A stretch of 64,000 bases of DNA. Source: Actinomycetota bacterium (GTDB lineage Bacteria; Actinomycetota; UBA4738; HRBIN12). Where the stretch lies: NCBI GenBank assembly GCA_040881665.1, contig JBBECT010000005.1, forward strand, positions 650,138-714,137, written 5' to 3'. Positions 7,012-49,545 of this stretch are shown here, piece after piece. The notes under the pieces are model-generated. The model was not told where the DNA came from and searched no databases. It worked only from the letters and a program-made list of their open reading frames with translations. The stretch's first letter is position 1. The number at the start of each line of letters is the position of its first letter. The translations under genes and the position numbers were made by a program.

Positions 7012-7044
7012 GCGGTGAACCCGCGGTGAACCCGCGGTGAACCC
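7012..7044 (-). promoter_or_regulatory. PHO box: three 11-bp direct repeats before ppk
   Basis: GCGGTGAACCC occurs three times in perfect tandem, at 7012, 7023 and 7034. Read toward ppk, each unit contains GTTCACC. This is the core and the 11-bp spacing of actinobacterial PhoP operators (Streptomyces PHO boxes). The likely binder is the PhoB/PhoP-type regulator encoded at 7085-7816, whose gene ends 40 bp away. Confidence 0.8.
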
Positions 7045-7084: not shown

Positions 7085-7816
7085 TCAGGCAACGAACTTG
7101 TAGCCGAGCCCTCGGACGGTGAGCAGGTGGACGGGATGGTGCGGGTCCGCCTCGATCTTCTGGCGCAACCGCTTCACGTGAACGTCCAGCGTTTTCGTAT
7201 CACCGAAGTAGCCGGGACCCCAGACCTCCTCGATCAGGAACTCCCGCGTGAGCAACCGTCCCGCGCGTCGCAGGAACGCCTCGAGCAGTTCGAACTCTTT
7301 CGGAGGGAACGCCACCACCTCGCCACGGACACGAACCTCGTGCCGCACGACGTCCATCTCGACCGCCGTGCCGACGAGGACATCCTCGGGTACGGTCACG
7401 GCCCGCATCCTCGACCGGCGGAGGTTCGCGCGTACCCGCGAGATCAGCTCCCGGACGCTGAAGGGCTTCGTGATGTAGTCGTCGGCACCGAGCTCGAGGC
7501 CGGTGACCTTGTCGGCCTCGGCGTCCTTCGCCGTGACGATGATGATCGGGACGTCGGACTCGGCCCGGATCGCACGGCAGACATCCAGCCCCGACAGCTC
7601 CGGCAGCATCAGATCGAGGACCACGAGCGCCGGTGGTTCGGCGTGGAACCGCGCGAGCCCGGTGTGCCCGTCCCCCGCCACCGAGACGACGTAGCCCTCA
7701 CGTTCGAGGTTGTAGCGGATCGAATCAGCGAGCGACTCCTCGTCCTCCACCAAGAGGATCCGCAGGACCGCCTCTCCGGTCGGGGACGTGCCCTGTGGCT
7801 CGGGTTCAGTCCGCAT
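7085..7816 (-). CDS. phoB: PhoB/PhoP-type OmpR-family response regulator
   Basis: The 243-residue protein has a receiver domain (about 18-135) with the acidic pair in VEDEE (Glu24-Asp25), phosphoacceptor Asp68 in VVLDLMLP and the Lys of DDYITKPFS. A winged-helix DNA-binding domain follows (about 147-243), ending in TVRGLGYKFVA. It is the probable binder of the 11-bp repeats before ppk and pstS. The ATG at 7816 overlaps the end of phoU by 11 bp. Its kinase is most likely PhoR at 12546, which lies at the other end of the pst operon. The extra 17 N-terminal residues are unusual and may be non-essential. Confidence 0.92.
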   Translation of the reverse strand: MRTEPEPQGTSPTGEAVLRILLVEDEESLADSIRYNLEREGYVVSVAGDGHTGLARFHAEPPALVVLDLMLPELSGLDVCRAIRAESDVPIIIVTAKDAEADKVTGLELGADDYITKPFSVRELISRVRANLRRSRMRAVTVPEDVLVGTAVEMDVVRHEVRVRGEVVAFPPKEFELLEAFLRRAGRLLTREFLIEEVWGPGYFGDTKTLDVHVKRLRQKIEADPHHPVHLLTVRGLGYKFVA

Positions 7817-8498
7817 CCGGATTCGCCTCGACGGGATGGGAGGCGTCGGTGAACTCCCGGAACTTGCCGGTGAGCAGGAAGCCGACTTGCTCTCCCACGT
7901 CGACTGCGTTGTCGCCCACACGTTCGAGGTGCCGCGCCACCAAGGACATGTGCAAGCCCCAGTCGAGCTTGTCCGTATCGTCGGCGAGACGGGTCACCTC
8001 GCCGTGCATGTTCCGGTTCAATCGATCGACCGGATCGTCCATCTCCGGAAGCTTCAGGCACAGCTCGAGCTCGCGCCGGCGGAACGCCTCCATCGACGTG
8101 CGGACCATCGGCACGACGAGGTCGCCCATCTCCTGGATCATCGCGCGGATCTGATCGTCGCCCGGCTTGCCGTGGGCCCACCGCACCGTCTTCGCAACGT
8201 TCACCGCCTGGTCGCCGATCCGCTCGAGGTGCAGGTTGATGTGCAGGATCGTCGACACGAGCCGCAGATCGGTCGCCACCGGCGTCTGCAACGCCAGCAT
8301 CTGGAGCGTTCCCTCTTCGATCGACATGTACTTCGCGTCGATCGCGTCGTCTTCGTCCACCACCTTCGCCGCAAGGTCGAGGTCGTCGTGGCCGAGCGCC
8401 GCGACCGCCTGCTCGACGGCGAGCGCGCTCAGCTCCCCCATCTCGAGCAGATCGATCTCGGTCCGCTCGAGCGTCTCGTGGAAGTGCTCGCGGGGCAT
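7806..8498 (-). CDS. phoU: Phosphate signalling regulator PhoU
   Basis: The 230-residue protein has the two-repeat helical bundle of PhoU. Repeated segments HINLHLERIGDQAVNVAK and MSLVARHLERVGDNAVDVGE carry the E/D-rich metal-binding pattern (ERIGDxA and ERVGDNA). PhoU links Pst transport to PhoR and keeps the Pho regulon off when phosphate is plentiful. The ATG at 8498 overlaps the pstB stop (TGATG), and its own end overlaps the phoB start, so it is coupled to both. Confidence 0.95.
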   Translation of the reverse strand: MPREHFHETLERTEIDLLEMGELSALAVEQAVAALGHDDLDLAAKVVDEDDAIDAKYMSIEEGTLQMLALQTPVATDLRLVSTILHINLHLERIGDQAVNVAKTVRWAHGKPGDDQIRAMIQEMGDLVVPMVRTSMEAFRRRELELCLKLPEMDDPVDRLNRNMHGEVTRLADDTDKLDWGLHMSLVARHLERVGDNAVDVGEQVGFLLTGKFREFTDASHPVEANPDAD

Positions 8499-9424
8499 CA
8501 GCCGAACCGTCCCGTCACGTAGTCCTCCGTTCGTTGGTCGCTCGGGTTCGTGAAGATCGACTCCGTCTTGTCGAACTCCACGACCATCCCGGTACGTTGC
8601 CCTTCGGGGCCGACCTCCACCGAGAAGAACGCCGTCCGGTCGCTCACGCGCGCAGCCTGCTGCATGTTGTGGGTCACGATCACGATCGTGTACTCGGAGA
8701 CGAGCTCGCGCATCAGGTCCTCGATCTTCCCGGTCGCGATCGGGTCCAGCGACGAGCACGGCTCGTCCATCAGGATCACATCCGGACGGGTCGCGATCGC
8801 GCGCGCGATGCACAGACGCTGCTGTTGACCTCCCGACAAGGCCATCCCCGACTCGTGCAGCTTGTCCTTCACCTCGTCCCAGAGCGCCGCCTTCTGCAGG
8901 GACTCCTCGATGAGCGCGTCCATGTCCCCTTTGAACCCCGCGATCTTCGGACCGAAGGCGATGTTGTCGTAGATCGACTTCGGGAAGGGGTTCGGCTTCT
9001 GGAACACCATCCCGATCCGGCGGCGCACCTCGACCGGATCGACGTGGCCGTCGTAGAGGTTGACCCCGTGGTACAGGATCTCTCCCTCGACACGGGCGAT
9101 CTCGATCAGATCGTTCATGCGGTTCAGCGTCCGCAGGAAGGTCGTCTTACCACACCCCGACGGACCGATCAGCGCTGTGATCTCGTTGTTGCCGACCGCG
9201 AGGTTCACGTCGCGGACGGCGCGGAAGTCCCCGTAGTAGACGGACACATTCCGCACGTCGAACACGGGTTCTCGCTGGGGCTGGGACACCTGCACCTCGT
9301 CGTGGTTCGGAAGATGCAGCGTAACCTCCAACACGGCGCCCTCGGCGACGGCGGCGGGAGCCTCGTGTGCCTCGGTGCGAGGATCGGTCTCGTTCACATC
9401 GATCGGACTACCACCTTCGCTCAT
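8498..9424 (-). CDS. pstB: Phosphate ABC transporter ATP-binding protein PstB
   Basis: The 308-residue ATPase has Walker [10 protein letters not shown] at 87-95, the Q-loop in [10 protein letters not shown], signature LSGGQQQR, Walker [14 protein letters not shown] and the switch His in IVTHN. It drives phosphate import through PstC-PstA. The first 55 residues are an extra hydrophilic extension compared with the usual 250-260 residues. They come from the ATG at 9424, which overlaps the end of pstA by 17 bp. A later start is possible but no better candidate is evident. Confidence 0.96.
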
Positions 9425-10361
9425 ATCGGTTCCTCAGCAGGATGGCCGCCAGGTTGACCAGGAACACCGCGAGGATCAGGACCAGGATCGCGGCGGCGGC
9501 GAGGTCCTGGAACTCCGGCTGCGGCTTCTTCGTCCACGCGAAGATCAACGTGGGCATCGAGGTGAACCGTTCCTGCAGCTGCTCGCCCGGTCCGCCCTGC
9601 GCCACGAAGAAGCCCGTGACCGCACCGACCATGATCAGCGGAGCGGTCTCCCCGAGCGCGCGGGCCATCGAGAGCACCGTGCCGGTGAGGATGCCGGGCG
9701 CCGCGTTCGGGAGCACATGGCTGCGGATCACCTCCCAGCGCGTCGCACCGACGCCGAAGCCACCCTCGCGGATGCTGCGAGGCACGGCACGCAGCGCCTC
9801 CTGGGTCGTGATGATGATGATCGGCAGCACCATGATCGAGATCGTCAGACCGCCGGCCAGCAGGCTTCGCCCGGCGACGGAGCCGGGACCGACCACATCG
9901 CCCAGGAGCCCGACGAACAACGCGAGACCGAGGATCCCGTAGACGATCGCCGGGACACCCGCGAGGTTGCGGATGTTCGTGTTGACGAACCGCGTGAAGC
10001 CGGTGTCCTTCGCGTACTCCTCCATGTAGACCGCGGCACCGATCCCCAGCGGGAACGAGAGCACCGCCACGAACAGCATCAGGAACGCCGAGCCGATCAG
10101 TCCCTGCTTGATCCCCGCCCGAACCGGCAGTGAAGACGTTCCGCTGGAGACGAATTCCCCACCCCGCTCCTGCAGGACCGGTATCGCGGCGCGCGCAACG
10201 TCGGCGAGCAGCACGAGCAGGACCACGAGCGCGACCAGCAAGGTGAGCAGGAGCACGCCGTGGAACACCACGCTGCGCCAGTCGGCGCGCCGTCCCGTGA
10301 GCGCGCGTCGGACCTCCTCGCGGGCGGCCGCGCTTCCGGTGGCGACTACTCGGGCCTGCAT
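9408..10361 (-). CDS. pstA: Phosphate ABC transporter permease PstA
   Basis: The 317-residue polytopic protein has a long N-terminal hydrophobic segment (about 35-60) and a permease core of about five more helices. The EAA-type loop reads [23 protein letters not shown], the site that docks on Pst[17 protein letters not shown] is typical of PstA. It forms the membrane channel with PstC. The ATG at 10361 overlaps the stop of pstC (TGATG), and the stop is overlapped by pstB. Confidence 0.95.
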
Positions 10362-11302
10362 CAGTACCGCCTCCGAACACGCCGGACGAAGCGCTCCGAG
10401 AACAGGTTCAGACCGAGCGTCATGAAGAACAGGAGCATCCCGACGAAGTACAAGCTCGGGACCGCGGCGCCGCTCCCGGCGGCGCGATCCGACCCCGTCG
10501 CCAGCGAGGTGATCGCGGCCGTCATCGTCTGCCCCCCGCGGAGCGGGTCGAGGTTGAACCCCGACCCCCCCGTCCCGCCGGCGGCGATCGCGACGATCAT
10601 CGTCTCACCGATCGCGCGCGAGATCCCGAGGATCAGCGCGGCCGTGATGCCCGAGACGGCCGCGGGGACCACGATCTTGAGGCTCGTCGTCCGCAGCTTC
10701 GCGCCGAGGCCGAACGAGGCTTCCCGGAGCCCACTCGGGACCGCGTGCATCGCATCCTCGGCCACGGAAGCCACCAACGGAGTGACGAGCAGCCCGACGC
10801 CGATCCCAGCCGCCAGGAAGTTGAAGAACTCCGCCCCGCCGAACAGCTTCTGCACGATGTCGGGACTGATGAAGCGCAGCGCGAAGAACCCCATGACGAC
10901 ACTTGGAACGCTCGCAAGCGTCTCGAGGATCGGCTTCAGCATCCTGCGCGAGCGCGACTTCGCGAATTCCGAGAGGTACAGGGCCGCTCCGAGCCCCAGC
11001 GGCGCGGCAACGACCATCGCGATCAGGGAGACGACGAGGGTGCCCGCGAGGATCGCCGGCAGGCCGAACTCGTTCCGGCGCGGGAACCAGTCCATCACGA
11101 GCATCTGGGAGAACTCGACCTTGCTGAGGTAGTCGATCGTTCCGCCGGCCAGCGACGCGACGATCGCGACGCTGATCGCGATAGACAGCAGGGCGGCGGT
11201 GAGGAAGACCCTGCGGACGACCCGTTCCTTGCGATGGCGTTTCCGATTCCCCCCGAGGTCCTCGAGGGTGAGTCCGCCCCGCTCGATGCTCGCCTGCGCC
11301 AC
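10361..11302 (-). CDS. pstC: Phosphate ABC transporter permease PstC
   Basis: The 313-residue permease has six predicted helices. Motifs are LETLASVPSVVMGFFAL and the EAA loop AMHAVPSGLREASFGLGAKLRTT, followed by LGISRAIGETMIVAIA. It pairs with PstA. The start is GTG at 11302, preceded by CGGAGG; longer in-frame extension upstream lacks a site and would run into pstS. The gap to pstS is 86 bp. Confidence 0.95.
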   Translation of the reverse strand: MAQASIERGGLTLEDLGGNRKRHRKERVVRRVFLTAALLSIAISVAIVASLAGGTIDYLSKVEFSQMLVMDWFPRRNEFGLPAILAGTLVVSLIAMVVAAPLGLGAALYLSEFAKSRSRRMLKPILETLASVPSVVMGFFALRFISPDIVQKLFGGAEFFNFLAAGIGVGLLVTPLVASVAEDAMHAVPSGLREASFGLGAKLRTTSLKIVVPAAVSGITAALILGISRAIGETMIVAIAAGGTGGSGFNLDPLRGGQTMTAAITSLATGSDRAAGSGAAVPSLYFVGMLLFFMTLGLNLFSERFVRRVRRRY

Positions 11303-11388
11303 GTGCCTCCGTCCGATGTCTGTGCGAGTTGTACCAGGGACCCCACGTCCCACGGAAGGGCCGGTCCCGCCCGACCGGTGGAACGCGT

Positions 11389-12399
11389 CTAGCCGACCGC
11401 CTTCTCCCAGGCCGAGCGCGTGGCCCGGACGCGGTCGTCGGGCAGGCTCACGTAGCCGACCTCGGAAACCGACGCCAGCCCCTCGTCCGTGAGGTAGTAG
11501 TCGACGAACGCGGCCACCGCAGCGTTCACGGCCGCCTTCTCTGCGCTGGGATAGATGTAGAGGGAACGCGCGAGCGGATAGGTACCGTCGATGACCGTCT
11601 CCTCGCTCGGAGCCACGCACCCATCGCCGCCGTCGACCTCGACGGCCTTCACCGTGTCGCCGGCGCCGAGCGCGAACGAGAGTCCGACGAAGCCGAGGCC
11701 CGAGGAGTTGTTCGCGGCGTTGTCGATGATCACGTTGTCGTCACCCGATGCCTGGTAGTCCTTGCGGAGCTGATCGTCGGGTTGCTTCTGTGCCTCCGCG
11801 ATGTCGGCGAGCGCGATCTCGATGAACGAGCCGTAGGTACCCGACTCCTCACCGGGCGCGACGATCGTCAACGGCACGTCGGGAAGCCCGCCGTTGCCGC
11901 CGACCTCCGTTGCGAGCTCGTTGGCATCACTCCACTGCGTGAAGCCTTCCGACTCGGGGCCGAACAGGGCGTACAGGTCGCCGAGGGCCAGGCAGTCGAC
12001 CGGGTTCTCCGGATTGGTCACGACCGTCAGCGCATCGAGGCCGACCTCCAGCTCGACGGGGGTCACGCCCGCCGCCTCGCACGCGTCGGCTTCCTCGTCG
12101 TCGATCGCACGGGACGCATCGTTCATGTCCGTGTCGCCGGCGCAGAAGAGCTCGAAGCCGTCGCTGGTTCCCGGACCGTCCACCGCGATCTCGACGCTGG
12201 GGTTCTCGCCGGCGAACTTCTCCGCGTTCAGCGACGAGATCTGCTCGACCGTCGAGGATCCAGACACGTTGACGCTGCCGGTGACTTCGGCAGTGTCGCC
12301 GGCATCGGCCTCGTCGTCGCTCCCACCGCACGCCGCGGCTACGAGCGACAGCACGAGGATCCCAGCGATCAGGGCGAACAGATTCTTGCTGTGGCGCAT
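11389..12399 (-). CDS. pstS: Phosphate-binding lipoprotein PstS
   Basis: The 336-residue protein has a lipoprotein signal peptide ending in LVAAAC, with Cys24 as the lipid-bearing residue. The mature protein starts with an acidic linker and then SVNVSGSSTVEQI, the phosphate-binding SGSST loop of PstS proteins. Further binding residues are expected in DASRAI and PGEESGTYGSF. It captures phosphate outside the membrane for PstCAB. The ATG at 12399 has a strong Shine-Dalgarno (GGAGGG). Two pairs of PHO repeats lie 76-111 bp upstream, so it should be the main starvation-induced promoter. Confidence 0.96.
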   Translation of the reverse strand: MRHSKNLFALIAGILVLSLVAAACGGSDDEADAGDTAEVTGSVNVSGSSTVEQISSLNAEKFAGENPSVEIAVDGPGTSDGFELFCAGDTDMNDASRAIDDEEADACEAAGVTPVELEVGLDALTVVTNPENPVDCLALGDLYALFGPESEGFTQWSDANELATEVGGNGGLPDVPLTIVAPGEESGTYGSFIEIALADIAEAQKQPDDQLRKDYQASGDDNVIIDNAANNSSGLGFVGLSFALGAGDTVKAVEVDGGDGCVAPSEETVIDGTYPLARSLYIYPSAEKAAVNAAVAAFVDYYLTDEGLASVSEVGYVSLPDDRVRATRSAWEKAVG

Positions 12400-12437
12400 G
12401 GTCCCTCCTTGGTCGAACAGCTCCTCCATCCACCGGA

Positions 12438-12443
12438 AGGCTA
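12438..12443 (-). promoter_or_regulatory. Candidate -10 of pstS
   Basis: TAGCCT on the minus strand lies 31 bp downstream of the first PHO repeat. This is nearly the spacing seen at ppk (33 bp from the repeat core to TAGCAT). The -35 region is poor, as expected for an activator-dependent promoter. Confidence 0.4.
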
Positions 12444-12474
12444 TGGAGGGCGGATGACCAGACCCTGGCCCGAA

Positions 12475-12510
12475 GGTGAACGCCGGGTGAACGGTGACCG
12501 GGAGGTGAAC
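12475..12510 (-). promoter_or_regulatory. PHO box: two pairs of 11-bp repeats before pstS
   Basis: GGTGAAC or GGTGACC occurs at 12475, 12486, 12493 and 12504. Spacing is 11 bp within each pair, with the second pair offset by 18 bp. On the strand read toward pstS the units are GTTCACC followed by CGGC, TTC or TCC, matching the Streptomyces PHO-box pattern. The region also lies upstream of divergent phoR, so both promoters could respond. Confidence 0.8.
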
Positions 12511-12533
12511 GGCAGCGCCCACAGATGCCCCCG

Positions 12534-12539
12534 TACACT
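12534..12539 (+). promoter_or_regulatory. -10 element of phoR, leaderless
   Basis: TACACT is followed by 6 nt and the ATG at 12546. The PHO repeats end 24 bp upstream, close to where a -35 would be. Confidence 0.55.
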
Positions 12540-12545
12540 CGCCCC

Positions 12546-13850
12546 ATGGAGCTGAGCGCCGCCCTCGGGGTCGTGCTCGCCGCGATCGCGGGGGCGGGAT
12601 CGGGTTGGTGGGTCGCCACCAGAGCCTTCGGACGACGGCTCCGCTCGGCGACCGACGCGGTGGATCGGCTCGGTGACGCGGACACGGAGGCTCGAACCCT
12701 CGAAGGCGGCCCCGCAGGCGCGGCCGCCTTGGCGGGAGCGGTGAACCGCGCGGGGGAACGTCTCGGAGGACAGGTGCGAGCGCTCCGACGCGAGCAGCGG
12801 ATCCGGGACTTGATCCTGTCCTCGATGCAGGAGGGCGTCCTCCTGTTCGACGGTGATGGCGGCGGTGTCGTCTTCGCGAACGACGCGATCGACCGCCACC
12901 TCCGCACCCGCCCGGCAACGGCGTCGCAGCTGCACCCTCCGGCACTGCGTGAGGCGGTGGAGCACGCGGCGTCTGTGTCGCGCCCCGTCTCCGTCGAGGT
13001 CGAGATGACGGCACCGAGCGCGTGGCTCCGCGGAACCGCCGTTCCCGCGATCGGAGGCAACTCGGTCCTGCTCGTCCTCCGCGACGTCACCGAGGCCAAG
13101 CGGCTCGACGCCGTCCGCCGCGACTTCGTCGCGAATGCGTCGCACGAACTGAAGACACCGGCAGCGTCGATCCAGGCGACCGCGGAGACGATCCGGATCG
13201 CCGCGGAGGACGATCCGGCCGTCGTCCCCCGGTTCGCACAGCAACTCGATCGCGAGGCGATCCGCCTGTCGAGCATCGTCGCGGACCTGCTCGACCTCTC
13301 GCGCCTGGAAACGGGCAGCGACATCGATGACGACGTCCGGCTGGACGTGCTCCTTCGCGAGGAGACGCCACGCATCCAGGACGCCGCGCGCGCCGCGGAT
13401 GTCGAGCTAGAGATCGACGCCGCTCCCGTCCCCCCGATCCGCGGCGCCCGTCGCGACCTCGCGCTGTGCGTCCGCAACCTCGTCGACAACGCGATCCGGT
13501 ACACCAAGCCCGGAGGGAACGTCCTCGTCGCCGTCGTCGAGGGCGCCGGCGGCGAGGTCGTGCTGAAGGTGGCCGACACCGGGATCGGGATCCCGTCGCG
13601 GGACCTCCCCAGGATCTTCGAGCGCTTCTACCGGATCGACCGCGCGCGCTCGCGCGACTCTGGGGGCACCGGACTCGGGTTATCGATCGTCAAGCACGTC
13701 GTCGAGAACCACGGCGGCGCCGTCTCGGTCGACAGCGAGCTCGGCCAAGGAACCCGTTTCGAGATCCGGTTCCCTCCCGATGCCGCGAGGACCGGTCGCG
13801 ACGGCCGCGCGGCGCCCGCCGGCGGGGACGGGGCTATCCTTCCCCGGTGA
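12546..13850 (+). CDS. phoR: PhoR-like sensor histidine kinase
   Basis: The 434-residue protein has one N-terminal membrane helix (about 3-24), a PAS-like domain (about 85-183) and a HisKA domain with phosphorylated His200 in NASHELKTPAAS. The HATPase_c domain has the N box in NLVDNAIRYTKPGG, then DTGIGIP and GGTGLGLSIVKHVV. No extracytoplasmic domain is present, which fits phosphate sensing through PstCAB-PhoU rather than direct ligand binding. The partner regulator is phoB at 7085. The start at 12546 is favoured by the leaderless -10. The 3' end overlaps the next gene by 4 nt (GTGA). Confidence 0.9.
   Translation: MELSAALGVVLAAIAGAGSGWWVATRAFGRRLRSATDAVDRLGDADTEARTLEGGPAGAAALAGAVNRAGERLGGQVRALRREQRIRDLILSSMQEGVLLFDGDGGGVVFANDAIDRHLRTRPATASQLHPPALREAVEHAASVSRPVSVEVEMTAPSAWLRGTAVPAIGGNSVLLVLRDVTEAKRLDAVRRDFVANASHELKTPAASIQATAETIRIAAEDDPAVVPRFAQQLDREAIRLSSIVADLLDLSRLETGSDIDDDVRLDVLLREETPRIQDAARAADVELEIDAAPVPPIRGARRDLALCVRNLVDNAIRYTKPGGNVLVAVVEGAGGEVVLKVADTGIGIPSRDLPRIFERFYRIDRARSRDSGGTGLGLSIVKHVVENHGGAVSVDSELGQGTRFEIRFPPDAARTGRDGRAAPAGGDGAILPR
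13835..13840 (+). promoter_or_regulatory. -10 element inside phoR for the phosphatase gene
   Basis: TATCCT lies 6 nt before the GTG at 13847. It would give a leaderless mRNA starting within the 3' end of phoR, in addition to readthrough. Confidence 0.45.
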
Positions 13851-48367: not shown

Positions 48368-49545
48368 GAGGGAGCGCCTGCGGACAGCAACCGGCTGTGC
48401 GGGCATGCGCACCCAACGCACCAGGCACCAGATCAGGGCAGCGGCGCGGAGGATGACCGCGGCGCGCAACGTCGTCGACGAGGCGCCTCCGAACCCCGAT
48501 TGCTCACCGAGCCACGAGAGTTCGGAGAGGTGCACGGCGACGTCCGTGACGGCCAGTGCGGCCCATGTGCGGACATCGGGGAACACGAGGGCGAACCACG
48601 GCAGCAACCACAGGGTGTACTGCGGCGAGTACACCTTGCTGGTCAACACGAAGGCGACGAGCAATGGGAATGCCAGCGTCCACCCGGCGAACTCGGGTTC
48701 TCGGCGACGCTTGGCAACGAACACGAACCCCGAAACGACGAGGAAGGCAGCGAGTGAGAGCGCGCCGACGACGTCGTCGGAGACACACGCCACCGTGCCC
48801 GTTCGCCCGCACCCACCGAACCAGATCGAGCCCGGACTCGGAGGCCTGGTCGTGTTGAAGCGGAAGAACAGACTCCACGCCGAAGGGACCACGATCGCGA
48901 CCGGCAGGTTGACGATGAGCACCGCGGCGAGCGCCCATCCCGTGATCGTCCCGGCGGCGCGCCGTGACCCCGTTCGGAACCGATCCAGGACGAAGGCAAC
49001 GCACACGAAGACTGGATAGAGCTTCGCCGCCACCCCGAGACCCGCAAGGAACCCGGCGGCGCGATCCCGCCGCTCGACGAAACACAAGGCCGCCCAGGTC
49101 GAGAGGAAGACGGGAGCAGGTCCCAGTTGAGGAATGCCGCGAGCACCAAGGATGGCGACGCGACGAACAACAACGCTCGGTCACCCGTCAACCGGATCAG
49201 GATGAGGGCGGTTGCGAACGCACACGCAGTCAACACCAAGACGTTCGCCGTGAGATAACCACCGTCGCTTCCTGCCGGCAGCGTCGTGAGGTACATCACG
49301 CTTGCGGTCAGGACGGGGTACTCGTTCGCTTCGTCCAGATACGGAACGGATCCCGCGTCGAGTCCTCGGGTCTCGTGGAGCGCGAGGATGTCTGTGTAGC
49401 AGAAGCGCTCGTACGGTCGACCGTCCTCCCACGATCCCTCGGCGCACGGCACTTTCAGGAGGAAAGCGGAGGCCAGGACACCCCCGAGGACCAGGAGCAG
49501 GGATGCGGCAGACAGGCGACGTGGGATCGAGCTGAGCCGCTGCAC
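48332..49545 (-). pseudogene. GT87-type (DUF2029) mannosyltransferase, frameshifted
   Basis: Two frames together encode one protein of about 404 residues. The first frame runs from 49545 (RLSAASLLLVLGG...) through LVLAAFLNWDLLP. The second continues VFLSTWAALCFVERRDRAAGFLAGLGVAAKLYPVFVC to the stop at 48332. 'NWDLLPVFLSTWA' and 'GLGVAAKLYP' are hallmark motifs of the GT87 family, which uses polyprenyl-phosphate mannose. The break lies near 49110-49112, after CTCCCG. One missing base there would restore the frame. It may be a true mutation or a sequence error. Confidence 0.8.

Follow-up and report, generated by a model that had tools for sequence, protein, structure and literature searches.

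What do four PHO-type repeats between two divergent genes of phosphate regulation control, and do all four act together? The question is raised by an Actinomycetota genome (2.46 Mb in 7 contigs, 95.87% complete) in which pstS and phoR are separated by 146 nt. We studied the locus within a window, the whole stretch of 64,000 nucleotides that was analysed, and compared it with the corresponding loci in relatives. The features of the window are as follows.

7014..7042, minus strand: PHO triple in front of ppk, an exact GTTCACC repeated three times with an 11-bp period and followed after 33 bp by TAGCAT
7085..11302, minus strand: pstC-pstA-pstB-phoU-phoP, from coordinates and frames, ends overlapping from pstC onward
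11389..12399, minus strand: pstS, ATG at 12399 after AGGAGG; NCBIfam TIGR02136, E = 6.3e-56, with 189.7 bits short of the 206.6 set as cut-off
12438..12443, minus strand: candidate pstS -10 element TAGCCT, 31 bp after the proximal pair
12453..12459, minus strand: weak third repeat, GGTCATC (5/7 matches), at offset +33 and nine bases before the -10, where pstS would have its -35
12475..12492, minus strand: proximal PHO pair GTTCACC-N4-GTTCACC, exact, core operator of the predicted pstS promoter
12493..12510, minus strand: GTTCACC-N4-GGTCACC, the distal PHO pair, which directly adjoins the proximal one and is identical to it at 14/18 positions
12534..12539, plus strand: candidate phoR -10 element TACACT, six bases before the ATG at 12546
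12546..13850, plus strand: phoR sensor kinase, probably leaderless, ATG at 12546; best NCBIfam matches PnpS (302.2 bits) and phoR_proteo (273.9 bits), both below cut-offs

The two genes lie start to start, with pstS on the minus and phoR on the plus strand. PstA, PstB and PstC score above their NCBIfam cut-offs, and the matches of PhoR and PhoP are both under theirs. Among solved structures, PhoP (at 7816) is closest to RegX3 (2oqr, E = 1.6e-79). The named relatives of PstS are mostly records labelled Actinomycetota or Acidimicrobiia, so that the genome probably belongs to a deep-branching actinobacterial lineage. A second, weak PstS-like stretch is found elsewhere in the genome (G000:C5:754599-754823, E = 3.6e-4). 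Across 7085-12399, phoP closes the pst cluster and phoR lies on the other side of the operator, so that one PHO array splits the two-component pair; ppk, with its own PHO triple, is next after phoP. The genes pstSCAB-phoU-phoP are likely to form one operon headed by the array, with phoP as the last gene, but the single operon is unproven because of the 86-bp gap between pstS and pstC.

All four units are read on the pstS strand: GTTCACC at 12510-12504, GGTCACC with one mismatch at 12499-12493, and GTTCACC at both 12492-12486 and 12481-12475. Their start-to-start steps are 11, 7 and 11 bp, which gives two abutting 18-bp pairs with zero spacer, as in the first-pass annotation, where they had been read as four GGTGAAC-like units in two 11-bp pairs offset by 18 bp. 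The third weak unit at 12459-12453 had been missed there. Four one-strand units with at most one mismatch are expected in a 146-nt intergenic region with P of about 5e-5 (20,000 simulated regions), and a four-unit cluster occurred in none of 60 simulated 64-kb windows. The exact pair GTTCACC-N4-GTTCACC is found three times in the genome, once here and twice, overlapping, at ppk, with no further exact site. There are also three pairs with one mismatch, namely the distal pair and two others, both within long open frames; all four sites inspected among the 36 listed for the genome (two with one mismatch, two with two) lie within such frames. A cluster of three weak units at 48584-48620 of the window falls in open frames, one of them 282 codons long, and has the appearance of coding sequence.

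The PHO unit of Streptomyces is GTTCACC with an 11-nt period (PMC6988585, PMC4415409), and pairs of it are described as recognised by PhoP (PMC6988585, PMC7866108). The locus has the corresponding properties: direct repeats resembling GTTCACC, two or more in number and with an 11-nt period, here as two pairs, one of them exact; a position upstream of phosphate-regulated genes, which in the window are pstS and ppk; and a cognate PhoR-PhoP encoded in the same region. The pstS/phoR array is an ordinary actinobacterial PHO operator with a local variant. No sigma-70-like promoter was found in 12380-12620, and a -35 element of that type is absent. The distances to the -10 element given in the first-pass annotation, 31 bp at pstS and 33 bp at ppk, are correct, and the former turned out to follow a conserved rule in relatives.

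To define this rule, we collected two groups of loci. The pair was present with at most two mismatches in 18 of 30 phoR loci fetched, and with at least 11/14 matches in 53 of 71 named pstS loci, where the search took in 450 nt of upstream sequence or the initial 60 nt of the match. A good pair was not found in the other 18 of the 71, which counts against the explanation that we favour below. The set analysed comprised 70 loci: 52 of the 53 pstS loci, after a duplicate locus had been dropped, and 18 phoR loci. The latter were 17 of the 18 pair-bearing ones, without the more distant L022, plus L007 (GTTCACG/GTTCATG); in some of them (e.g. L002, L005, L018 and L021) the downstream gene was unmatched to PstS by BLAST. 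Offsets were counted after aligning the loci on the pair alone, and 58 loci were non-redundant.

The 58 non-redundant loci show TA at positions 49-50 and T at position 54. A TANNNT element begins exactly at +49, 31 bp downstream of the pair, in 46/70 loci (41/58 non-redundant), compared with 0.13 on average at each of the other offsets. We call the 31-bp distance a rule because this fixed spacing is seen across relatives. The unit at +33 is also enriched (z = 6.2), with at least 5/7 matches in 23/58 non-redundant loci, and in Streptomyces lividans the pstS promoter has CTTCATC at +33 as well, by our own arithmetic on the primer sequences printed in PMC2605767. Judged by alignment, the 31-bp gap holds a weak unit at the place of a -35. 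In another 14 of the 70 loci, +49 is empty and TANNNT is found at +71, exactly 22 bp further. Ten of these 14 have a unit with at least 5/7 matches at +33, the other four have TTCACG one base earlier, and the unit at +55 is enriched too (z = 3.9). The 14 loci represent related lineages and are reduced to 7 once near copies are removed. They are L097, L099-L109, L114 and L125, named Acidimicrobiia-type records in which the whole array is shifted exactly 22 bp upstream. TANNNT is at neither position in 10/70 loci, two of which have TAGCTT at +50, and these ten also count against the explanation favoured below.

A wider test of the spacing used the pattern GTTCACC-N4-GTTCACC-N(25 to 37)-TASNNT in 296 genomes of the phylum. 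It gave 24 matches in 21 genomes from 13 families, with a spacer of 31 in 22 of them, 30 in one and 33 in one, the latter being the ppk site of the window, while the reversed pattern used as a control gave one match. PstS was identified by tblastn at 12 of the 24 matches; most other downstream frames are PstS-lipoprotein-like and one is Ppk-like, as judged by eye. The pattern is strict, and the 275 of 296 genomes without a match are uninformative on looser PHO boxes. On this comparative evidence, the proximal pair is a PHO promoter widely shared in Actinomycetota, and the proposal of the first-pass annotation that the repeats are aimed at pstS is supported by both sequence and comparison. The precision of the 31-bp and 22-bp rule may be new: we recognised no earlier statement of it at the level of titles and abstracts, with the subscription literature outside the scope, and it may be in print. 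The rule is testable: 31 bp lead to the -10, a weak unit stands nine bases ahead of that element, and one group adds a step of 22 bp. In uncultured lineages it could help to locate PhoP targets and -10 elements.

The distal pair behaves differently. Units at -18 and -7 occur together in 1/70 loci, that of the genome of the window, and L007 has a lone unit at -18. A conserved upstream array in relatives was rejected on this count. The first-pass annotation had treated the two phased pairs as one unit, a view that is not supported: relatives share the proximal pair, which keeps to the 11/22-bp ruler, whereas the distal pair was seen in this genome only and departs from that ruler. With 10.5 bp per helical turn, a step of 18 bp corresponds to a rotation of about 257 degrees, compared with 34 degrees for 22 bp. 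The distal pair has no alternative -10 element of its own, as there is no TANNNT at its +49 (CTGGTC) or +71 (CTTCCG). It is probably an 18-bp tandem duplication, as suggested by its 14/18 identity to the proximal pair, and this locus can be seen as a natural case of the rule broken. In Mycobacterium tuberculosis, PhoP is reported to require a 4-bp spacer strictly, a 3-bp spacer costing about 20-fold in affinity (PMC4832192). By analogy, the zero-bp joint between the two pairs should not carry a normal dimer contact. The roles open to the distal pair are extra local sites, competition at the joint, an effect on phoR, or none.

The array upstream of ppk was rejected as a conserved partner of the pstS array. 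No comparable pair was found upstream of ppk in the other loci checked (15 beyond that of the window, one of them without upstream sequence), and three of them, L038, L040 and L045, have a single exact GTTCACC. As there is no equivalent in these loci, the ppk array of the window also looks like a local gain. A Ppk-looking frame (by eye) with the exact 31-bp PHO promoter layout was seen in L186, from another family.

The locus is very probably a PHO operator of the RegX3-like PhoP, whose own gene is the last of the pst cluster. Under phosphate limitation, phosphorylated PhoP would bind the proximal pair as a tandem dimer, and a further subunit would occupy the weak +33 unit, where a -35 is missing and the -10 is nine bases away. 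PhoP could then recruit RNA polymerase to pstSCAB-phoU-phoP, and the presence of phoP in the cluster would provide positive feedback on phoP. The distal pair, presumably a recent 18-bp tandem duplication, would offer another site for a dimer, out of phase with the first. It probably increases occupancy locally or causes competition at the joint, and may be dispensable for the basic switch. This explanation is favoured by the Streptomyces-like motif and 11-nt period, the 31-bp spacing, the 22-bp step, the third unit at +33, the lack of a sigma-70-like promoter in 12380-12620, the adjacent two-component genes and, for the distal pair, the spacer requirement of M. tuberculosis PhoP; the match of only 5/7 at the +33 unit of the window speaks against it.

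A further reading is that the operator is bidirectional, the array also setting the transcription of phoR by activation or repression, with the distal pair as the phoR side. We regard this as possible, without favouring it. The repeats do lie between divergent genes, one of which is the kinase gene, and in 20/70 loci a divergent phoR lies no more than 900 nt from the array. The distal pair ends close to the phoR -10, as the first-pass annotation had noted, although the gap is 23 bp and not 24. The same annotation had proposed a leaderless phoR, and this gains support from TABACT located 4-12 nt before an in-frame start in 13/24 phoR loci, given only 16 occurrences of TABACT on that strand in the 91,776 nt of these loci; phoR is probably leaderless. 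It has no recognisable -35, and among the phoR loci compared (24 in the TABACT test) we found neither a conserved -35 nor a PHO unit at a fixed distance from the phoR -10. The distance from the array to that element, measurable in 12 loci, ranges between 14 and 110 bp, which leaves shared control of phoR unproven. Moreover, the units point away from phoR, and relatives with the same divergent arrangement lack the distal pair. Streptomyces offers a precedent that makes control of phoR by the array possible: its phoRP genes are described as self-activated by PhoP from PHO boxes oriented the other way, towards phoU (PMC6283541). A more elaborate version holds that the ruler is Actinomycetota-wide (pair, weak unit at +33, -10 at +49, steps of 22 bp only) and is broken here by an 18-bp duplication, whose second PhoP dimer site on a different helix face serves phoR while the ruler-bound pair serves pstSCAB-phoU-phoP. 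If so, the kinase and regulator genes would be set separately from one operator, but we consider this version unlikely.

That the distal pair is a neutral, functionless tandem duplication, with only the proximal pair and the +33 unit of importance, is a real possibility, a little short of an even chance. Its restriction to one locus and a period equal to the length of the pair agree with this, and extra upstream units are no commoner in the 70 loci (13/70) than in a downstream control stretch (22/70), with 4/70 on the reverse strand. However, each distal unit keeps 6 or 7 of its 7 positions, and the ppk array, lacking in relatives, hints at selection for more PhoP sites. That the repeats are used by a different regulator of the OmpR type, for example an AfsR-like SARP, is very improbable. 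AfsR is reported to bind Streptomyces PHO boxes (PMC6988585), and in SARP operators the repeats are spaced by 11 or 22 bp and the final one stands 8 bp before the -10 (PMC10936776). The 11- and 22-bp steps are present here, but the gap to the -10 is 9 and there is no clear SARP in the genome, which at its estimated completeness has one weak BTAD stretch (69 profile positions, E = 4.1e-5). PhoP agrees better with the location of the array beside phoR and pstS and with its linkage to phoP. A chance cluster can hardly be credited: GGTGAAC is over-represented across the window (25 versus 6.3 expected), but the spacing, position and conservation of the units argue otherwise, and for the proximal pair a chance origin is refuted by the conserved spacing to the -10 in relatives.

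The preferred PhoP operator has counterparts in other systems. The PHO boxes of Streptomyces (pstS, ppk, glpQ and phoRP-phoU) likewise have paired 11-nt GTTCACC units upstream of pstS and ppk. In contrast to Streptomyces, phoR of the window faces pstS and not phoU, phoP follows the pst genes, and the pairs abut with steps of 11/7/11. The PolR sites of Microlunatus, described as GTTCACnnnnnGTTCaC, are also located at the pstS and ppk promoters (PMC6754071), but PolR is a response regulator of the DevR type and is thought to respond to oxygen, whereas the window has a RegX3-like PhoP next door. The pho box of Escherichia coli shares the 7+4+7 layout with 11-nt units (PMC4415409) and differs in its motif, CTGTCAT.
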